Both the position numbers and the translations under genes were made by a program. From contig JAKAPQ010000003.1 of NCBI GenBank assembly GCA_021806945.1, positions 1-44,506 on the forward strand: a stretch of DNA of 44,506 nucleotides, written 5' to 3'. Below, one piece after another: positions 26,314-33,013 of the stretch (the first letter of the stretch is position 1; each line of letters opens with the position of its first letter). The stretch comes from a bacterium. GTDB taxonomy: Bacteria; Vulcanimicrobiota; Vulcanimicrobiia; Vulcanimicrobiales; Vulcanimicrobiaceae. The notes under the pieces were generated by a model that saw nothing but the letters and a program-made list of their open reading frames with translations, had not been told where the DNA came from and did not search any database.

Positions 26314-26892
26314 ATGAGAACGCTTCGAACGCCGCGCCTCCGCCTGGTCCCCGTGACGCAGCGCAACGCCGCCGAGCTATGGCATGTGCTGCAGCAGCCG
26401 GATCTGCGCGCATATCAAGATCTGCCCAGCGTCGGCGTGGCCGCGTTCGAAGGTATGGTTGGAAGGCGCCCGCCGCGCCTGATCGAAGGGGCCGCGGGCC
26501 GCTTCGAATGGCTGGTGTACATGCACCGGTCCCGCAGGGCGTTGGGCTGGGTATCATTGCGCGTCTCCGCAGGCGAGCCAGGCGCCGCCGAGATTGGGTA
26601 TAGCGTCGTGCGCGAATTTCGTGCGCGCCGCATTGCAACCGAAGCGGTCTCCGCGCTTATCGACGAAGGGTTCACCTCCGCCGGCCTATCGCTGGTTCGC
26701 GCGTATTGCGTGCCGGAGAACGACGCTTCGCGGCGCGTACTCGAACGGCTGGGGTTCACGCGCGAGAGCGTCTTGCCGCGCGGTGCATCGGTAAGCGGGC
26801 GGCCGGTCGACGTGCTGTCTTACGTGCTGGCGCAGGAACGTTGGGACCGAAACGCCGAGATCGATCCGACCGCCGCCACAGCGCACTCCTAG
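26314..26892 (+). CDS. GNAT acetyltransferase (RimJ/RimL-like)
   Basis: RTPRLRLVPVTQRNAAEL, IGYSVVREFRARRIATEAVSALIDEGF, CVPENDASRRVLERLGFTRE. Confidence 0.9.
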   Translation: MRTLRTPRLRLVPVTQRNAAELWHVLQQPDLRAYQDLPSVGVAAFEGMVGRRPPRLIEGAAGRFEWLVYMHRSRRALGWVSLRVSAGEPGAAEIGYSVVREFRARRIATEAVSALIDEGFTSAGLSLVRAYCVPENDASRRVLERLGFTRESVLPRGASVSGRPVDVLSYVLAQERWDRNAEIDPTAATAHS

Positions 26893-27320
26893 CGAACGAC
26901 GCCGAAACCGCCGGCGGCCAGCACGGCCATTGAAACCGTAGCGAGGCCGCCGATCCACCCGATGCCGCGCGCGTAGCGCTGTCCGCTCCAGGTGCATAAG
27001 AAGCCTAGCAGGGCGATCGAGAGATGATCGCCGACGTGTGCCATCGGGTGCGCGTCGAGATATGCGTACGAGGAAGGCCACATCAGAAACATGACGAGCA
27101 GCGGCGAGCCTACGACCGCGATCAGCCATGCGCCGTTACGGTCTCCCGCGGTATCTGGGCTCGCGAGCAACGCGGTCGTAACGGCTCCTGCGAGCAGCAG
27201 GGCGTGCAACAGATGATGTTCGGGAATCGAGACGTCTTCGTTACTTACCAGCGGTGCGAGCGCTGCCGCCAGGGTCAGCGCGCCGATCAGGTAGGCGGCG
27301 ATCCTCCGCGACGAGCTCAC
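26889..27320 (-). CDS. Small His-containing integral membrane protein, last gene of the oxidase-like operon
   Basis: GTG start overlapping the subunit I stop; VSIPEHHLLHALLLAG, YLDAHPMAHVGDHLSIALLGF; about four TM segments. Confidence 0.6.
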   Translation of the reverse strand: MSSSRRIAAYLIGALTLAAALAPLVSNEDVSIPEHHLLHALLLAGAVTTALLASPDTAGDRNGAWLIAVVGSPLLVMFLMWPSSYAYLDAHPMAHVGDHLSIALLGFLCTWSGQRYARGIGWIGGLATVSMAVLAAGGFGVVR

Positions 27321-28750
27321 GCCGGGTCCTGCGCAGGTAGTCGTGCAAGCCGAATCGCCTCGATCAAAACAACGATCAAGCCGAGCAGGAGCAGCAACGC
27401 TCCTACGGTAGCCCACGAGGCCGTTAGCGGTCCGGGCGACGGTTCGATCGCGTAACGGCGAGGGACGCCGTTCGCGCCGGCCACGTAGAAACCGAGTAAG
27501 AACACGGTCATACCGCCGAACGTGGTGAGCCCGATTATCCAACGCAGAAGCGGCGGCGAACATCTGCCGGAGCGCTCTTCGAGTTGCATGTAGATTAGGC
27601 CGAGCGCGAACAGAAAGACGCCGCCGAGCAGATAGGTGTGAAAGTGCGCGGGCACCCATAGCGTGTTATGCAGGTCGAAGTTCAGCGGAATCGAGGCATC
27701 CAAGAGGGCACCGATGCCGCCGACCACCCAGCCGACGAGCCCCGTGAAGAGGAAGATCGATCCTAGCGTCCACCGCATCCGCGACCGGTAGACCAGGAGC
27801 ATCGAGCCCCAGACGGAGACCGCCGTCGCCGGTATCGCCGAGAGGTACGAAGCGATCTCCCCGACGTATTGCAGCGGGCGGTACTGTACGAAGTCCATAT
27901 AGAGGTGGTGGAAATACGCAATCGCGACGAAGACCAGCGTCGCCCACCACGCGATCGCCAAAATCTTTGTCGTGTGATACTCGCGCCCGGTGTATCGCGC
28001 CATGCCGACGTAGACCCAGCCAAGTGCCATGTAGATGGTCAGATTCGCGAACGCATGGCCGAAGAAGAAGGTAACGTTCTTTGCCCACAGCGGGTCGACG
28101 AGCACCGACGGGCTGAGCCAGTGCGCGATCAGCGCGACCCCGATCGTCATGCCGGCCATTCCGGTGAGGACACCGTCGACCGCCACGACGAAGGCTGCGA
28201 TGGATTGTGGCGGCGGCGCCTCGTGCGGCTCTGCATCGCGCTTGAAGACGAGATTCCATCCCGACGCGCCGGCCCAGCCGCCGTAACGCGTAAGCGTAAA
28301 AGCAAGCATCTGAAAGCACCATGCCGTCCAGCCGAGGCTCACGAGCATGATGCCGATCAAGAACGTGCCGGTGGCCCAAGATGGCCACGTGGCCCCGACG
28401 AACGGCAGCGGATACAAAAACGTCCATCCGGCCGCGAAGCCTCCCGGGAAGACACTCAGCAGCACGGCGACGACGCCCAGTACGACGAGCGCGTAGGCGA
28501 CCAGCGCCGCGCCCGCGCTCAGCTCGCCTTCCTGCCGCATCAGATACCAGAGACCGCCCATGCCGCAAAGCGCGACCGAAGTGATCATGCCGGCTCCGTG
28601 CAGCGTCAGCATCGCATAGAAGATTTGGGGACCGAAAGCGACCCAGCGCGCCTGTTCGGCGCGCATCGCGATGCCGAGAAGCATCATCAGCGTGAAGACG
28701 GCAATGCCCGTGAGGAGATAGGTCCAGAGAACGCGTCGCGCCGCAGTCAT
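27317..28750 (-). CDS. Heme-copper oxidase superfamily subunit I, B-family-like, probable NO reductase-type (Tyr of HPEVY replaced)
   Basis: Ligand motifs TLHGAGM, FFFGHAFANLTIY, AYFHHLYMD, DLHNTLWVPAHFH; start ATG 28750 overlaps the subunit II stop. Confidence 0.9.
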   Translation of the reverse strand: MTAARRVLWTYLLTGIAVFTLMMLLGIAMRAEQARWVAFGPQIFYAMLTLHGAGMITSVALCGMGGLWYLMRQEGELSAGAALVAYALVVLGVVAVLLSVFPGGFAAGWTFLYPLPFVGATWPSWATGTFLIGIMLVSLGWTAWCFQMLAFTLTRYGGWAGASGWNLVFKRDAEPHEAPPPQSIAAFVVAVDGVLTGMAGMTIGVALIAHWLSPSVLVDPLWAKNVTFFFGHAFANLTIYMALGWVYVGMARYTGREYHTTKILAIAWWATLVFVAIAYFHHLYMDFVQYRPLQYVGEIASYLSAIPATAVSVWGSMLLVYRSRMRWTLGSIFLFTGLVGWVVGGIGALLDASIPLNFDLHNTLWVPAHFHTYLLGGVFLFALGLIYMQLEERSGRCSPPLLRWIIGLTTFGGMTVFLLGFYVAGANGVPRRYAIEPSPGPLTASWATVGALLLLLGLIVVLIEAIRLARLPAQDPA

Positions 28751-29280
28751 CGTACGTCGAAGCCCCCTTGCATAGAGGCGTGCCCGATGCCGCAGTATTC
28801 CAGGCAGCGGACCGTGTAGTGCCCGGCCCTGGTGAACGTCACCGGCAAGTGGTTTATGTAATCCGGCATCGCTTGCACCTGCGCGACGATCTGCCCGCGC
28901 GGATCGTAGATGCCGAAGCCGTGGTTCACGTCGAGCGACGTTACTTCGAAGACGATACGCCGGTCGAGCGGGAGCACGGAGGGCGTCGTGAAGGCGTACT
29001 GTTGCGCGATGACCTTCACGTAGAGCGTACCGTTTTTCGTCGCGTGGGCCGCGGCGCGGAGCGGCGGATAGGGAAACCACGGCAACGTCACGGCAAAGAT
29101 GGCTACAAGTCCCAGGCTCAGTATGACGAACCACCATCGCCGGAGCTTGTAGCCTTCCGGCTGCACTTGCGAATACGGAAGCGGCGAGAGCCGCGTCGAG
29201 AGCGCGACGAGCAACAGTACCGCCATCGCGGCTGCGGCAAGCACGAGGAAGGCGGGCAGTACGAGCGGTCCTTTAGCCAT
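28747..29280 (-). CDS. CuA-containing subunit II of the heme-copper enzyme
   Basis: One N-terminal TM plus a second; DVNHGFGIY and CuA motif CLEYCGIGHASM. Confidence 0.9.
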   Translation of the reverse strand: MAKGPLVLPAFLVLAAAAMAVLLLVALSTRLSPLPYSQVQPEGYKLRRWWFVILSLGLVAIFAVTLPWFPYPPLRAAAHATKNGTLYVKVIAQQYAFTTPSVLPLDRRIVFEVTSLDVNHGFGIYDPRGQIVAQVQAMPDYINHLPVTFTRAGHYTVRCLEYCGIGHASMQGGFDVR

Positions 29281-29344: not shown

Positions 29345-29647
29345 TTACCGCCCGAGCAGAGCTCTCCCCTGCGGGCTGAGCCTCTCGGGGCTCCAAGGCG
29401 GCTCGAAGACCAGGTGCACGCGCACCTCGCGCGGCCAGGATAAGCCGCGGACTGCCGACTCCACGTCCCGGGTGATGGTGGCGTGCATGGGGCAACCCGG
29501 CACCGTCAAGGTCATCGCGATATCGACGTCGCTCTCCTCGACGCCGATGCTGTAGACCAGGCCGAGGTTAACGATGTCGATCCCGAGCTCTGGATCGATC
29601 ACGCCGCCAAGCGCTTCGCGCACCTCCTCTTCCCGTGCGGCGCTCAC
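29345..29647 (-). CDS. DUF59/MIP18-family iron-sulfur assembly-like protein
   Basis: VREALGGVIDPELGIDIVNLGLVYSIGVEESDVDIAMTLTVPGCPMHATITRDV. Confidence 0.92.
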   Translation of the reverse strand: MSAAREEEVREALGGVIDPELGIDIVNLGLVYSIGVEESDVDIAMTLTVPGCPMHATITRDVESAVRGLSWPREVRVHLVFEPPWSPERLSPQGRALLGR

Positions 29648-29859
29648 CGGTAGCGTACCCGGAGCGTATAGCTGCCGTCGTCGTTACGCGAGCAGTCGTA
29701 GGCGAGTTCGCGGTCGTCCAATTCCGGATAGAGAAAGAGCGGTTCGCGGTCGAGCAGCGCCCGCATTTCGTCGCCGCGCGCCAAGGTGTCGAGCGCTTCG
29801 AGAATGTGCATCATGGGCTCGGGCGGTGGCAGTCCCCGGTTGTCGAGATCGACGATCAT
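29644..29859 (-). CDS. DUF2249 protein (stand-alone)
   Basis: IVDLDNRGLPPPEPMMHILEALDTLARGDEMRALLDREPLFLYPELDDRELAYDCSRNDDGSYTLRVRY; 4-bp overlaps on both sides. Confidence 0.75.
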   Translation of the reverse strand: MIVDLDNRGLPPPEPMMHILEALDTLARGDEMRALLDREPLFLYPELDDRELAYDCSRNDDGSYTLRVRYR

Positions 29860-31052
29860 CGCGTACCTCCGACGTACGGCTGCGCCAGCCGTGCGTACGA
29901 AACGAAGACGGCGATCGCGCCGCCGGCATATGGCACGAAGGCCCAGCGCACGTATGCGGGAGCGACGGCGAGCGCCGACGCGGTCGCGAGCGTTCCGGTG
30001 GTAAGCAAGAGAAGGCCTGCAACAGCGCACCGCTCGGGGACGGCTGCGCTCAAGGTGGGCAATACGACCCCGGGCCTGCGCTCCCGTGCGAACTGCCAGG
30101 CGAGGAATCCGGCAATCTTATACCCATAACCGACGATCGTGATGTTCGCCCATCCGAGCACTGCCAGAGTGACGGCGGCATATGCGGCGGGCGGCCACCA
30201 GGTCGCGCCCAGGGCCGCGGCGACGGCCAGTATCGCGCAGATCCAGGCGACGCCCGCATAGCGCAAGCTGATGTCGAGATGCTTGCGAAGCCGAACGCGA
30301 AGTTCGTGCAGATGGCCCGATCCGGCGATGGCGAGCGCGCCCAGCATCGCTACCAGCGCTGCTCGTAGCGCGTTCGGATGGTCGAAGCACGCAGCGGCGA
30401 ACGCGGCGGCCCCGACGAACGTCCACCGCGCGATGGCTTGACGGCGGTCGCCGACGAGATGGGCAAGTGCGAACATTGGAACGAAGCGAACGGAGATGGC
30501 GAGGATTGCCGTGCTCGCGAACGCGGCCAGCGCGAGCAGCGCGTGCAGCGGTGCGAGTGTCAGTACGCGCAGCCCGATGCGGCCGGCCAAGGCGCAGGCC
30601 ATCGCCGCGCCGATCGCTGCGGCCGCAACAAGGGCTGCCGCAGCGAAGCCGATCATGCCGGCGATCGAGCGCTCGAGCGGGGCGCCCAGGAGACGCGAGA
30701 TCGTCCACCCGCTCCAGCCCACTGCGCCGAGCAGCAGCAGCGCACCCGCAGCGCCGAAGAGCGGCGCACCGAGAAAGGATGCGACCAGCAGCGCGAAACC
30801 GGCTGCCAGCGGCGCGGCGGCGAGGAGTACCGAGCGGGGCGCGCTCACCGGAGCGCCGGTCAAGACGGGAATCAGTTGGTTGCTTGCTGCCACGAACGCG
30901 AGGACGATGAAAGCGGCGAAGGCATGGAGCGCGGCGAGCGATGCACCGGTCGCCAGCACGAGCACGCAGCCCGCTGCAAAGAACGTCAGCGCAAGCGTCA
31001 GTACGCCGCCGCTGCCGCGCGGGTCGCTGACGCTCGCGTCGATAGCTTGCAC
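29856..31052 (-). CDS. Polytopic membrane protein, NnrS/heme-protein-like
   Basis: About 12 hydrophobic segments; LHAFAAFIVLAFVAASNQLIPVLTG and GHLHELRVRLRKHLDISLRYA; family call is inference. Confidence 0.55.
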   Translation of the reverse strand: MQAIDASVSDPRGSGGVLTLALTFFAAGCVLVLATGASLAALHAFAAFIVLAFVAASNQLIPVLTGAPVSAPRSVLLAAAPLAAGFALLVASFLGAPLFGAAGALLLLGAVGWSGWTISRLLGAPLERSIAGMIGFAAAALVAAAAIGAAMACALAGRIGLRVLTLAPLHALLALAAFASTAILAISVRFVPMFALAHLVGDRRQAIARWTFVGAAAFAAACFDHPNALRAALVAMLGALAIAGSGHLHELRVRLRKHLDISLRYAGVAWICAILAVAAALGATWWPPAAYAAVTLAVLGWANITIVGYGYKIAGFLAWQFARERRPGVVLPTLSAAVPERCAVAGLLLLTTGTLATASALAVAPAYVRWAFVPYAGGAIAVFVSYARLAQPYVGGTR

Positions 31053-31055
31053 GGC

Positions 31056-31280
31056 CTACGCGCGCGCGAACAACACGTGATACTCGTCGGGCCCGACCTG
31101 CCGGCATTCGTTCGTGAAGCCTTTGCGTTCCATCACACGGAAGAGCGGCTTCGGCTCGAACGACGCAATCAGGAGCAGGCGTTCGCCTTCGCGCAACGCG
31201 CTCACCGCGTTCATGATCTCGTCGAAAGGTTCTCCGCCGCGTGCGAGAATCGGGCGCACGTCGAGCGTGACATCCGTCAT
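31056..31280 (-). CDS. DUF2249 protein (stand-alone)
   Basis: TLDVRPILARGGEPFDEIMNAVSALREGERLLLIASFEPKPLFRVMERKGF...EYHVLFAR. Confidence 0.85.
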   Translation of the reverse strand: MTDVTLDVRPILARGGEPFDEIMNAVSALREGERLLLIASFEPKPLFRVMERKGFTNECRQVGPDEYHVLFARA

Positions 31281-31507
31281 GCGCGCGTAATGTCTACGCG
31301 CCAGAGTTCCGGCCCGCTTTCAACGTAGCTCCAGGCGAAGACGCCCGGATGATCGTGGTCGATTTCGAAACGTAACGGGCGCGGGTCGTGGTCGTTGACG
31401 ATCTGCAGGGTTTCGCCGGCGGCCAGCGCCTCCAAGCGCGAGTGGATGGTCGGGTGCTTGTAGCGGGGCTCGATCGCCCGTACGTCGAGTTCGTTCGATG
31501 TGGTCAT
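31277..31507 (-). CDS. DUF2249 protein (stand-alone)
   Basis: ELDVRAIEPRYKHPTIHSRLEALAAGETLQIVNDHDPRPLRFEIDHDHPGVFAWSYVESGPELWRVDI. Confidence 0.88.
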   Translation of the reverse strand: MTTSNELDVRAIEPRYKHPTIHSRLEALAAGETLQIVNDHDPRPLRFEIDHDHPGVFAWSYVESGPELWRVDITRA

Positions 31508-31551
31508 GCCGGTATCGTAAGGGCCACCGGCCGGCGGCGCATTGACCGGCA

Positions 31552-32472
31552 TCACCGGTTGGCGATCTCGGTGAGCAGCGAGCGATCCAACCGCACGACG
31601 TGGCCCTCGGCCCGAACGATCGCGCGTTCGCGTTCGAGTTCGGCGAGCGCGCGATTGACGACTTCCTTGACGGTGCCGGCACTCGCTGCCAGTTGGCTTT
31701 GGCTCAGCCCGCGCAGCCCCGCAAGTGCGGGCGTTAGGCCTGCCTCCGGCGCCGCGTATGGCAGCAGCGCGGCAGCAACGCGCGAAACCGTCGGTTGCGA
31801 GAGGTGGGCGGTGAAGCGTTCCGCTATCGAGCGCGCCGTCTGCGCCGACGCCACCGCCAGCGTGCGTGCAAAGCCGGGGTCGCGGCCGGCTGCGGCGCGC
31901 ACCGCATCGGCGGGAAAGAGCGCGACGCGCACGCCTTTGGAGGGCGCCACGAAGCGAGCGATAGCCACGCCGCCGTCGAGCAGCCAGGTGTGCCCGAACG
32001 GCTCGCCGGCCACGATGTCGTAGAGCGCTTGCTCGCGCCCGAGCGGGGTCGTCACCAAAGCTTGCAGGGTCCCCGCGAGCACGACCCCGAGATGCGGCCA
32101 GGCTGCGCCTTGCTCGACAAGCGCGTGGCGCTCGCGTGGGAGCCTTACGGCTGCGACCGTGGCCAAGCGGTGCAGCGTCGCTTCATCCGCATCGGCGAAG
32201 ACTGCCAGGCGCGCCAGCTCGTCCTCGATGCATCGCTCGGCCGCGCCGCCGGTGGAGATGCGGCGTATCTGCACGAGCCAGTCGCCGTTGCCCAGCATGC
32301 GCTGAATCCAGAGGTATTGACCGCCGCGTTGCTCGCCGAACTGCACGCGCAGCGGCCGCGGTTCGTGATCGGTGCGCAGTTCCAGTTCGTCGCCCTCCGC
32401 GAGCGCGTCGAAAGCCGCGAAGATCCGCGGATGCCGTTGCCACGTCGGGATCGTGCGGACGTCGATGATCAC
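31552..32472 (-). CDS. CRP/FNR-family regulator with N-terminal DUF2249 domain
   Basis: DUF2249 module IIDVRTIPTWQRHPRIFAAFDALAEGDELELRTDHEPRPLRVQF, then cNMP-binding-like beta barrel and HTH LSQSQLAASAGTVKEVVNRALAELERERAI. Confidence 0.88.
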   Translation of the reverse strand: MIIDVRTIPTWQRHPRIFAAFDALAEGDELELRTDHEPRPLRVQFGEQRGGQYLWIQRMLGNGDWLVQIRRISTGGAAERCIEDELARLAVFADADEATLHRLATVAAVRLPRERHALVEQGAAWPHLGVVLAGTLQALVTTPLGREQALYDIVAGEPFGHTWLLDGGVAIARFVAPSKGVRVALFPADAVRAAAGRDPGFARTLAVASAQTARSIAERFTAHLSQPTVSRVAAALLPYAAPEAGLTPALAGLRGLSQSQLAASAGTVKEVVNRALAELERERAIVRAEGHVVRLDRSLLTEIANR

Positions 32473-32491: not shown

Positions 32492-33013
32492 TCAGCCTCC
32501 GAAATAGCCGGGGACGATTCGCTCGCTGCTGGTCGGCGGGTTGCTCTTGGGCAGAGCCGGATCCGTCGTGACGATGATATAGCCGGCCATCGATCCTAAC
32601 CCATCCGCGCCGGGCTTATGCGCGGGCTGGACCGCGTGGTCGAAGGTCTTGAGGAGCACGGCGTGCACCGAGCAGTAGTACGCGTAGACGCCTGGCTTGG
32701 CCAATCGCACGGTGTAGGTCGGGAGCCGATGCCCCGCCCCGGGCGTTCCAACAACCATCCCGTCGATCGCCGTTTCCGGCGCTCCGGTCAGCGGGTCGTA
32801 GCCGACGATGGTGTGCATCCCGGTGTCCTGGTTGACGAAGACGACGGGTTCGCCGGGCCGCACGGCGACGACGGGTTCCAGAAAATCGTTCGAGCCGTTC
32901 ATGTGCACGTAGACGGGCGCGTTCGCGATCGCGCGGGCCTGCGCGCACCCCGCGAGAAGGCATAACGCGGCTATGACGCCTGCTAGCCGGAGACCGGCGA
33001 AGGGACGGTGCAT
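32492..33013 (-). CDS. Cupredoxin-like lipoprotein
   Basis: Lipobox LCLLAGCAQA; NQDTGMHTIVGY, KPGVYAYYCSVH...GSMAGYIIV type-1 copper-like pattern. Confidence 0.8.
   Translation of the reverse strand: MHRPFAGLRLAGVIAALCLLAGCAQARAIANAPVYVHMNGSNDFLEPVVAVRPGEPVVFVNQDTGMHTIVGYDPLTGAPETAIDGMVVGTPGAGHRLPTYTVRLAKPGVYAYYCSVHAVLLKTFDHAVQPAHKPGADGLGSMAGYIIVTTDPALPKSNPPTSSERIVPGYFGG

Follow-up and report, generated by a model that had tools for sequence, protein, structure and literature searches.

The locus considered here raises the question of whether a pair of adjacent genes that automatic annotation would assign to a cytochrome c oxidase encodes, instead, a nitric oxide reductase. The pair lies on the minus strand of the window (the whole analysed stretch of 44,506 nucleotides, from a member of the Vulcanimicrobiaceae) and comprises a NorY-like heme-copper catalytic subunit (subunit I, 477 aa, positions 27317-28750; Pfam COX1, E 5e-48) and a NorS-like subunit with a CuA site (subunit II, 177 aa, positions 28747-29280; Pfam COX2, E 3e-8). 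The ATG of subunit I overlaps the stop codon of subunit II, the two genes sharing 4 bp. The original prediction anticipated the oxidase label, and this is what we observed: CtaD/CoxA was the top NCBIfam match of subunit I, and its homologues carry the annotation “cbb3-type cytochrome c oxidase subunit I”. The CtaD/CoxA score was only 79 bits, where the cut-off is 671, and subunit I is therefore not an ordinary cytochrome c oxidase. Our analysis predicts that the gene pair probably encodes an sNOR-type (NorSY) heme-copper NO reductase of the Eremiobacterota/Vulcanimicrobiota, the group in which its closest named relatives place the source MAG.

The metal-binding residues of subunit I are those of a complete heme-copper site. 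The claim that all metal-ligand histidines are intact was upheld for the six residues concerned, which are found in the motifs TLHGAGM (H51), FFFGHAFAN (H232, together with N236), YFHHLYMD (H281 and H282) and HNTLWVPAHFH (H369 and H371); these heme/CuB ligands were invariant in an alignment of homologues (48/48). The homologues represent ten phyla: Eremiobacterota, Planctomycetota, Verrucomicrobiota, Methylomirabilota, Deinococcota, Bacillota, Actinomycetota, Bacteroidota, Acidobacteriota and Pseudomonadota. A structural model of subunit I derived from these 48 sequences (mean pLDDT 88.8) contained 12 long predicted TM helices, and the nearest solved folds were oxidase subunits I (TM-score about 0.85). 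At the sequence level, the nearest solved structures were remote oxidases, with a profile match to the Thermus ba3 enzyme at an E value of about 2e-21.

In O2 reductases a tyrosine is cross-linked to a CuB histidine, and this residue is located on helix VI in the A- and B-families and on helix VII in the C-family. N236 of subunit I (codon at positions 28043-28045, minus strand) aligned exactly with the tyrosine of the GHPEVY/GHPLVY motif of A- and B-family oxidases, and this position was occupied by Asn in 48/48 homologues. The motif HAFAN had thus been read correctly as carrying Asn in place of the cross-linking tyrosine and, judged from the sequences compared, the change is real and old. In some relatives the Asn seemed to be missing (GHYGALW, GHFGALW), but these were false motif matches further upstream, and the alignment gives Asn throughout. 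A proton channel is lacking in sNOR as this family is described. With regard to the K proton path, the equivalent of ba3 Tyr244 is lost and that of Tyr248 is kept, a one-residue gap making the alignment ambiguous here, and the position of ba3 T312 was Thr or Ser in 48/48 sequences under one alignment. Asn236 differs from the residue at the tyrosine position of eNOR (Gln) and of gNOR (Asp, by which the latter family is defined; PMC8756737), as well as from the active-site Glu of cNOR/qNOR. Asn at the position of the cross-linking tyrosine is the signature of sNOR and bNOR (PMC8756737 Table A4; PMC3475470).

The CuA site of subunit II is also complete (DVNH and CLEYCGIGHASM), which agrees with the full CuA motif claimed for it previously. 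Two hydrophobic N-terminal TM segments were read from its sequence. A subunit II homologue was present upstream of subunit I in 80/80 genome loci, as well as in three plasmid records. The presence of CuA is, however, no proof of quinol independence: the CuA NOR purified from Bacillus azotoformans takes electrons from both menaquinol and cytochrome c (PMC3475470). The description of the enzyme as “quinol-independent” was therefore not established.

The affiliation of subunit I was examined in a maximum-likelihood tree of 64 proteins. It was placed in a 42-member clade (support 100/100) containing proteins of Ruegeria pomeroyi (formerly placed in Silicibacter) and Thermomicrobium roseum, the long stem of this clade and the long branches of both references being flagged by the program. 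This clade was separate from the A-, B- and C-family oxidases, from Gln-bearing eNOR-like sequences (those of Thermus and Defluviimonas plasmids among them) and from one cNOR. The NorY-like protein of R. pomeroyi is 38% identical to subunit I over 464 residues, and its locus (SPO_RS20760-20745) has the order subunit II, subunit I, SCO, orf, which is the norSY-senC-orf1 order of the sNOR operon of nitrifiers (Nitrosomonas; PMC4940428). The published sNOR entry has Asn at the tyrosine position and names Silicibacter among the holders (PMC8756737 Table A4); from the motif and the operon, we infer that the R. pomeroyi gene is the one listed. As the sNOR family has already been named (Murali et al. 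2024, who define eNOR, sNOR, gNOR and nNOR according to the papers citing them; PMC11388526, PMC12569097), the gene pair extends an established kind, sNOR (NorSY), by one member and does not constitute a new class. What it usefully adds to the knowledge of sNOR is the spread over phyla and a putative third subunit. The assignment to an NO reductase family in the original prediction thus gained support from the 100/100 clade and the Asn signature; the evidence that sNOR enzymes act on NO is itself indirect, and we know of no published purification of an sNOR.

Comparison with named systems revealed both common and distinguishing features. The window shares with sNOR/NorSY of Nitrosomonas and R. 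pomeroyi the Asn, the six histidines, a CuA subunit II encoded directly upstream, and full-length homology. Unlike in the sNOR operon, no SCO/SenC gene was found in the window, which is a point against the proposed identity; SCO and orf1 adjoin the R. pomeroyi homologue and several of those from Bacteroidota/Verrucomicrobiota, and are frequent in sNOR operons but do not strictly define them. In the window, subunit I is followed instead by a gene for a small membrane protein rich in His, and genes for DUF2249, DUF2249-CRP, DUF59 and cupredoxin proteins are located upstream. Its layout matches, as far as can be likened by description, the “qCuANOR type II” of Bacillus azotoformans/Geobacillus, in which the Asn goes together with 12 TM segments in subunit I, two in subunit II and a linked protein of 4-5 TM (PMC3475470), although the SenC/SCO gene linked to the latter system has no counterpart found in the window. 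The fold, the six histidines and the CuA subunit are common to A- and B-family O2 reductases, from which the protein is distinguished by the replacement of the GHPxVY tyrosine with Asn and by its separate clade. In contrast to cNOR/qNOR, a CuA subunit is present.

Several other explanations of these data have to be weighed. The missing tyrosine, taken by itself, could be the mark of a degenerate or inactive oxidase which had lost this residue by drift. We consider this very improbable and reject it on the basis of dN/dS and conservation: the reading frame is intact, the orthologues in two same-genus genomes are 95-97% identical and carry the same Asn, dN/dS values of 0.08-0.14 against these genomes indicate purifying selection, and the Asn is invariant across ten phyla. 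It is also possible, though quite unlikely, that the enzyme belongs to bNOR (CuANOR) or to the proposed nNOR instead of sNOR, in which case it would still be an NO reductase. bNOR of B. azotoformans, a purified NO reductase, shares both the Asn and CuA (PMC8756737, PMC3475470), and the 64 proteins of the tree included neither a bNOR nor an nNOR reference; when 200 Bacillota genomes were searched for bNOR, only Tyr-bearing oxidases were obtained besides the known sNOR. Against such an affiliation, bNOR has a 13-TM subunit I and a one-TM subunit II (PMC3475470), compared with 12 and two TM segments here, and subunit I groups with the R. pomeroyi protein at 100/100. bNOR also has an extra subunit of 46 aa and is closer to B-family oxidases (PMC3475470, PMC11388526).

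The remaining alternative concerns the substrate. Transcripts of the N. europaea sNOR are induced under O2 limitation, which has been interpreted as pointing to high-affinity O2 reduction (PMC6967387). There is a low but appreciable probability that the sNOR-family protein is, in the same way, mainly a high-affinity O2 reductase, with NO reduction as a side reaction and with another residue replacing the tyrosine. A three-His CuB-type site is indeed kept, Tyr240 and Tyr247 are invariant in the 48 homologues, and residue 279, two positions before the HH pair (Trp in A-family oxidases), is Tyr in 40/48. However, residue 279 is Phe in 5/48 and Trp in 3/48, and at the position of the C-family tyrosine (275) none of the 48 homologues has Tyr (Val, Ile, Thr or Leu being found there). 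Tyr240 and Tyr247 are separated from H232 by about two and four turns of helix, respectively, and a direct cross-link is therefore improbable; a redox-active tyrosine may be located elsewhere, and these two invariant residues are examples of candidates. The tree did not place subunit I among O2 reductases of demonstrated function that carry a compensating tyrosine. Moreover, the genus is already equipped with A- and B-family oxidases, and the purified bNOR, which bears the same Asn, is an NO reductase (PMC3475470).

NO reduction is the best inference for the gene pair, given that purified bNOR shares the Asn and considering the chemistry expected of a site lacking the tyrosine. A cytochrome c or cupredoxin of the periplasm would deliver electrons to CuA, and these would be passed on by the low-spin heme to the heme-CuB centre, at which two molecules of NO would be converted into N2O and water. 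In O2 reductases the tyrosine usually supplies an additional electron and proton for the splitting of O2; a site without it would lack this donor, which the two-electron coupling of NO should not need. The likely role of such an enzyme would be the clearance of NO of extracellular origin, with the DUF2249-CRP protein as the probable regulator.

The genome context fits a stand-alone NO reductase handling NO from outside. The genus is best represented by a 98% complete genome, which contains one A-family and one B-family oxidase, both with the tyrosine, and one copy of the sNOR-type enzyme; the organism should thus have other means of reducing O2. A search of the genus gave no nirK, and for nirS only short Cytochrom_D1 fragments, none of them convincing. 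The source of NO is consequently not evident, which counts against an NO reductase; for the same reason (no dedicated nitrite reductase found in the genus), external NO is the likely source of substrate. Among other carriers of the enzyme, nirK was above the cut-off in 3/11. The enzyme was present in 22 of 98 relatives and nosZ was above the cut-off in five, four of which had both. This co-occurrence gave p 0.009 when counted by genome and p 0.17 when counted by genus, and the association is thus only suggestive. Three genomes (G061, G062 and G063) were found to encode two to three copies each of the sNOR-type subunit I, together with nosZ above the cut-off.

The gene pair forms part of a series of nine minus-strand genes (positions 33013 to 26889), several of which overlap by 4 bp. 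Their order (cupredoxin, DUF2249-CRP regulator, DUF2249, 398-aa membrane protein, DUF2249, DUF59, subunit II, subunit I, 143-aa membrane protein) is identical in two same-genus genomes, and genes for DUF2249, DUF59 and the DUF2249-CRP fusion are also located beside homologues of the enzyme in other lineages. The first gene (32492-33013, minus strand) encodes a plastocyanin-like cupredoxin with a lipoprotein-like signal and only a weak profile match (NCBIfam plastocyanin, E 1e-4; PF00127, E 0.0035, below the cut-off); it is a possible electron donor to CuA. It is followed by the probable regulator of the operon (31552-32472, minus strand), in which an N-terminal DUF2249 domain precedes a CRP-type sensor and an HTH domain (PF10006, PF00027 and PF13545 in one protein). 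This fusion was also observed beside the enzyme in the Eremiobacterota loci L058, L063, L066-L069, L072 and L074. A search for FNR boxes produced 12 near-matches against 6.2 expected, none of which was clearly at the operon promoter. Both DUF2249 proteins (31277-31555, PF10006, E 3e-26; and 29644-29859, PF10006, E 2e-17 on the longer ORF 29647-30030) are encoded on the minus strand, and the ATG of the smaller, at 29859, overlaps the upstream stop codon. The DUF59/FeS_assembly_P (SufT-like) gene (29345-29647, minus strand; PF01883, E 9e-23) precedes that of subunit II. In Haloferax mediterranei, the genes of DUF2249 proteins neighbour nirK and nor, and denitrifying conditions induce these proteins (PMC11218638); the Thermus DUF2249 protein DrpA acts in nitrate respiration (PMC6282519).

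Of the operon context invoked in the original prediction, the CRP and DUF2249 components were confirmed by Pfam, but the “NnrS-like” component found no support in either the profile or the sequence of the protein concerned. This is a polytopic membrane protein of 398 aa (29856-31052, minus strand), with no assigned family, which is kept in the genus and in the Eremiobacterota locus L058. It gave no match in Pfam, NCBIfam or PDB, and its identification as NnrS was rejected (no profile match and no BLAST match to true NnrS; model pLDDT 53). The protein has conserved His and a GYxxKIxGFLAWQFAR motif.

The last gene of the series encodes a 143-aa membrane protein (26889-27320, minus strand), whose GTG start overlaps the subunit I stop codon and which is probably the third subunit of the enzyme. 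In L058 its counterpart, with 46% identity (E 2e-33), forms the membrane half of a fusion protein that ends in a cytochrome c domain. The fusion occurs also in L062, and in both cases is encoded directly after subunit I (L058:5440-6177 and L062:3431-4159). The cytochrome domain is absent from the protein of the window genus and from a homologue in L089. Five histidines are invariant among eight homologues. In these relatives, to judge from the fusion, cytochrome c may be what supplies CuA with electrons, a part that the cupredoxin of the operon could play in the window. The 143-aa protein is not claimed to be the sNOR orf1 product, the hhalign probability being 8%. We put forward only tentatively, as an unlikely reading, that the clade of the window represents a distinct NOR subfamily or nNOR, having a third subunit with a built-in cytochrome c donor in some relatives and a dedicated DUF2249-CRP regulator sensing NO or another nitrogen oxide.

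The cytochrome c oxidase label applied by annotation pipelines hides possible N2O producers among Eremiobacterota, Planctomycetota, Verrucomicrobiota, Methylomirabilota and other phyla. The substrate of sNOR, NO or O2, is disputed in print, and the strict Asn over many phyla, the ordinary oxidases of the genus and the putative third subunit offer targets for resolving this dispute. Four Methylomirabilota loci (L060, L061, L065 and L071), one of them from a carrier labelled Ca. Methylomirabilis oxygeniifera, encode the same enzyme family, with 56-58% identity to the window subunit I. Gln-bearing (GHxxQQ) eNOR-like subunits I, annotated as cytochrome oxidase, were encountered on plasmids of Thermus thermophilus (L128 and L130) and Defluviimonas (L129), and the Thermus copies adjoin Rrf2 and DUF542 genes. 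Finally, the B-type oxidases of plasmids from Burkholderia (L132) and Janthinobacterium (L134) have Leu for Gly before the first CuB histidine (TLHAIVYF) and retain the tyrosine.
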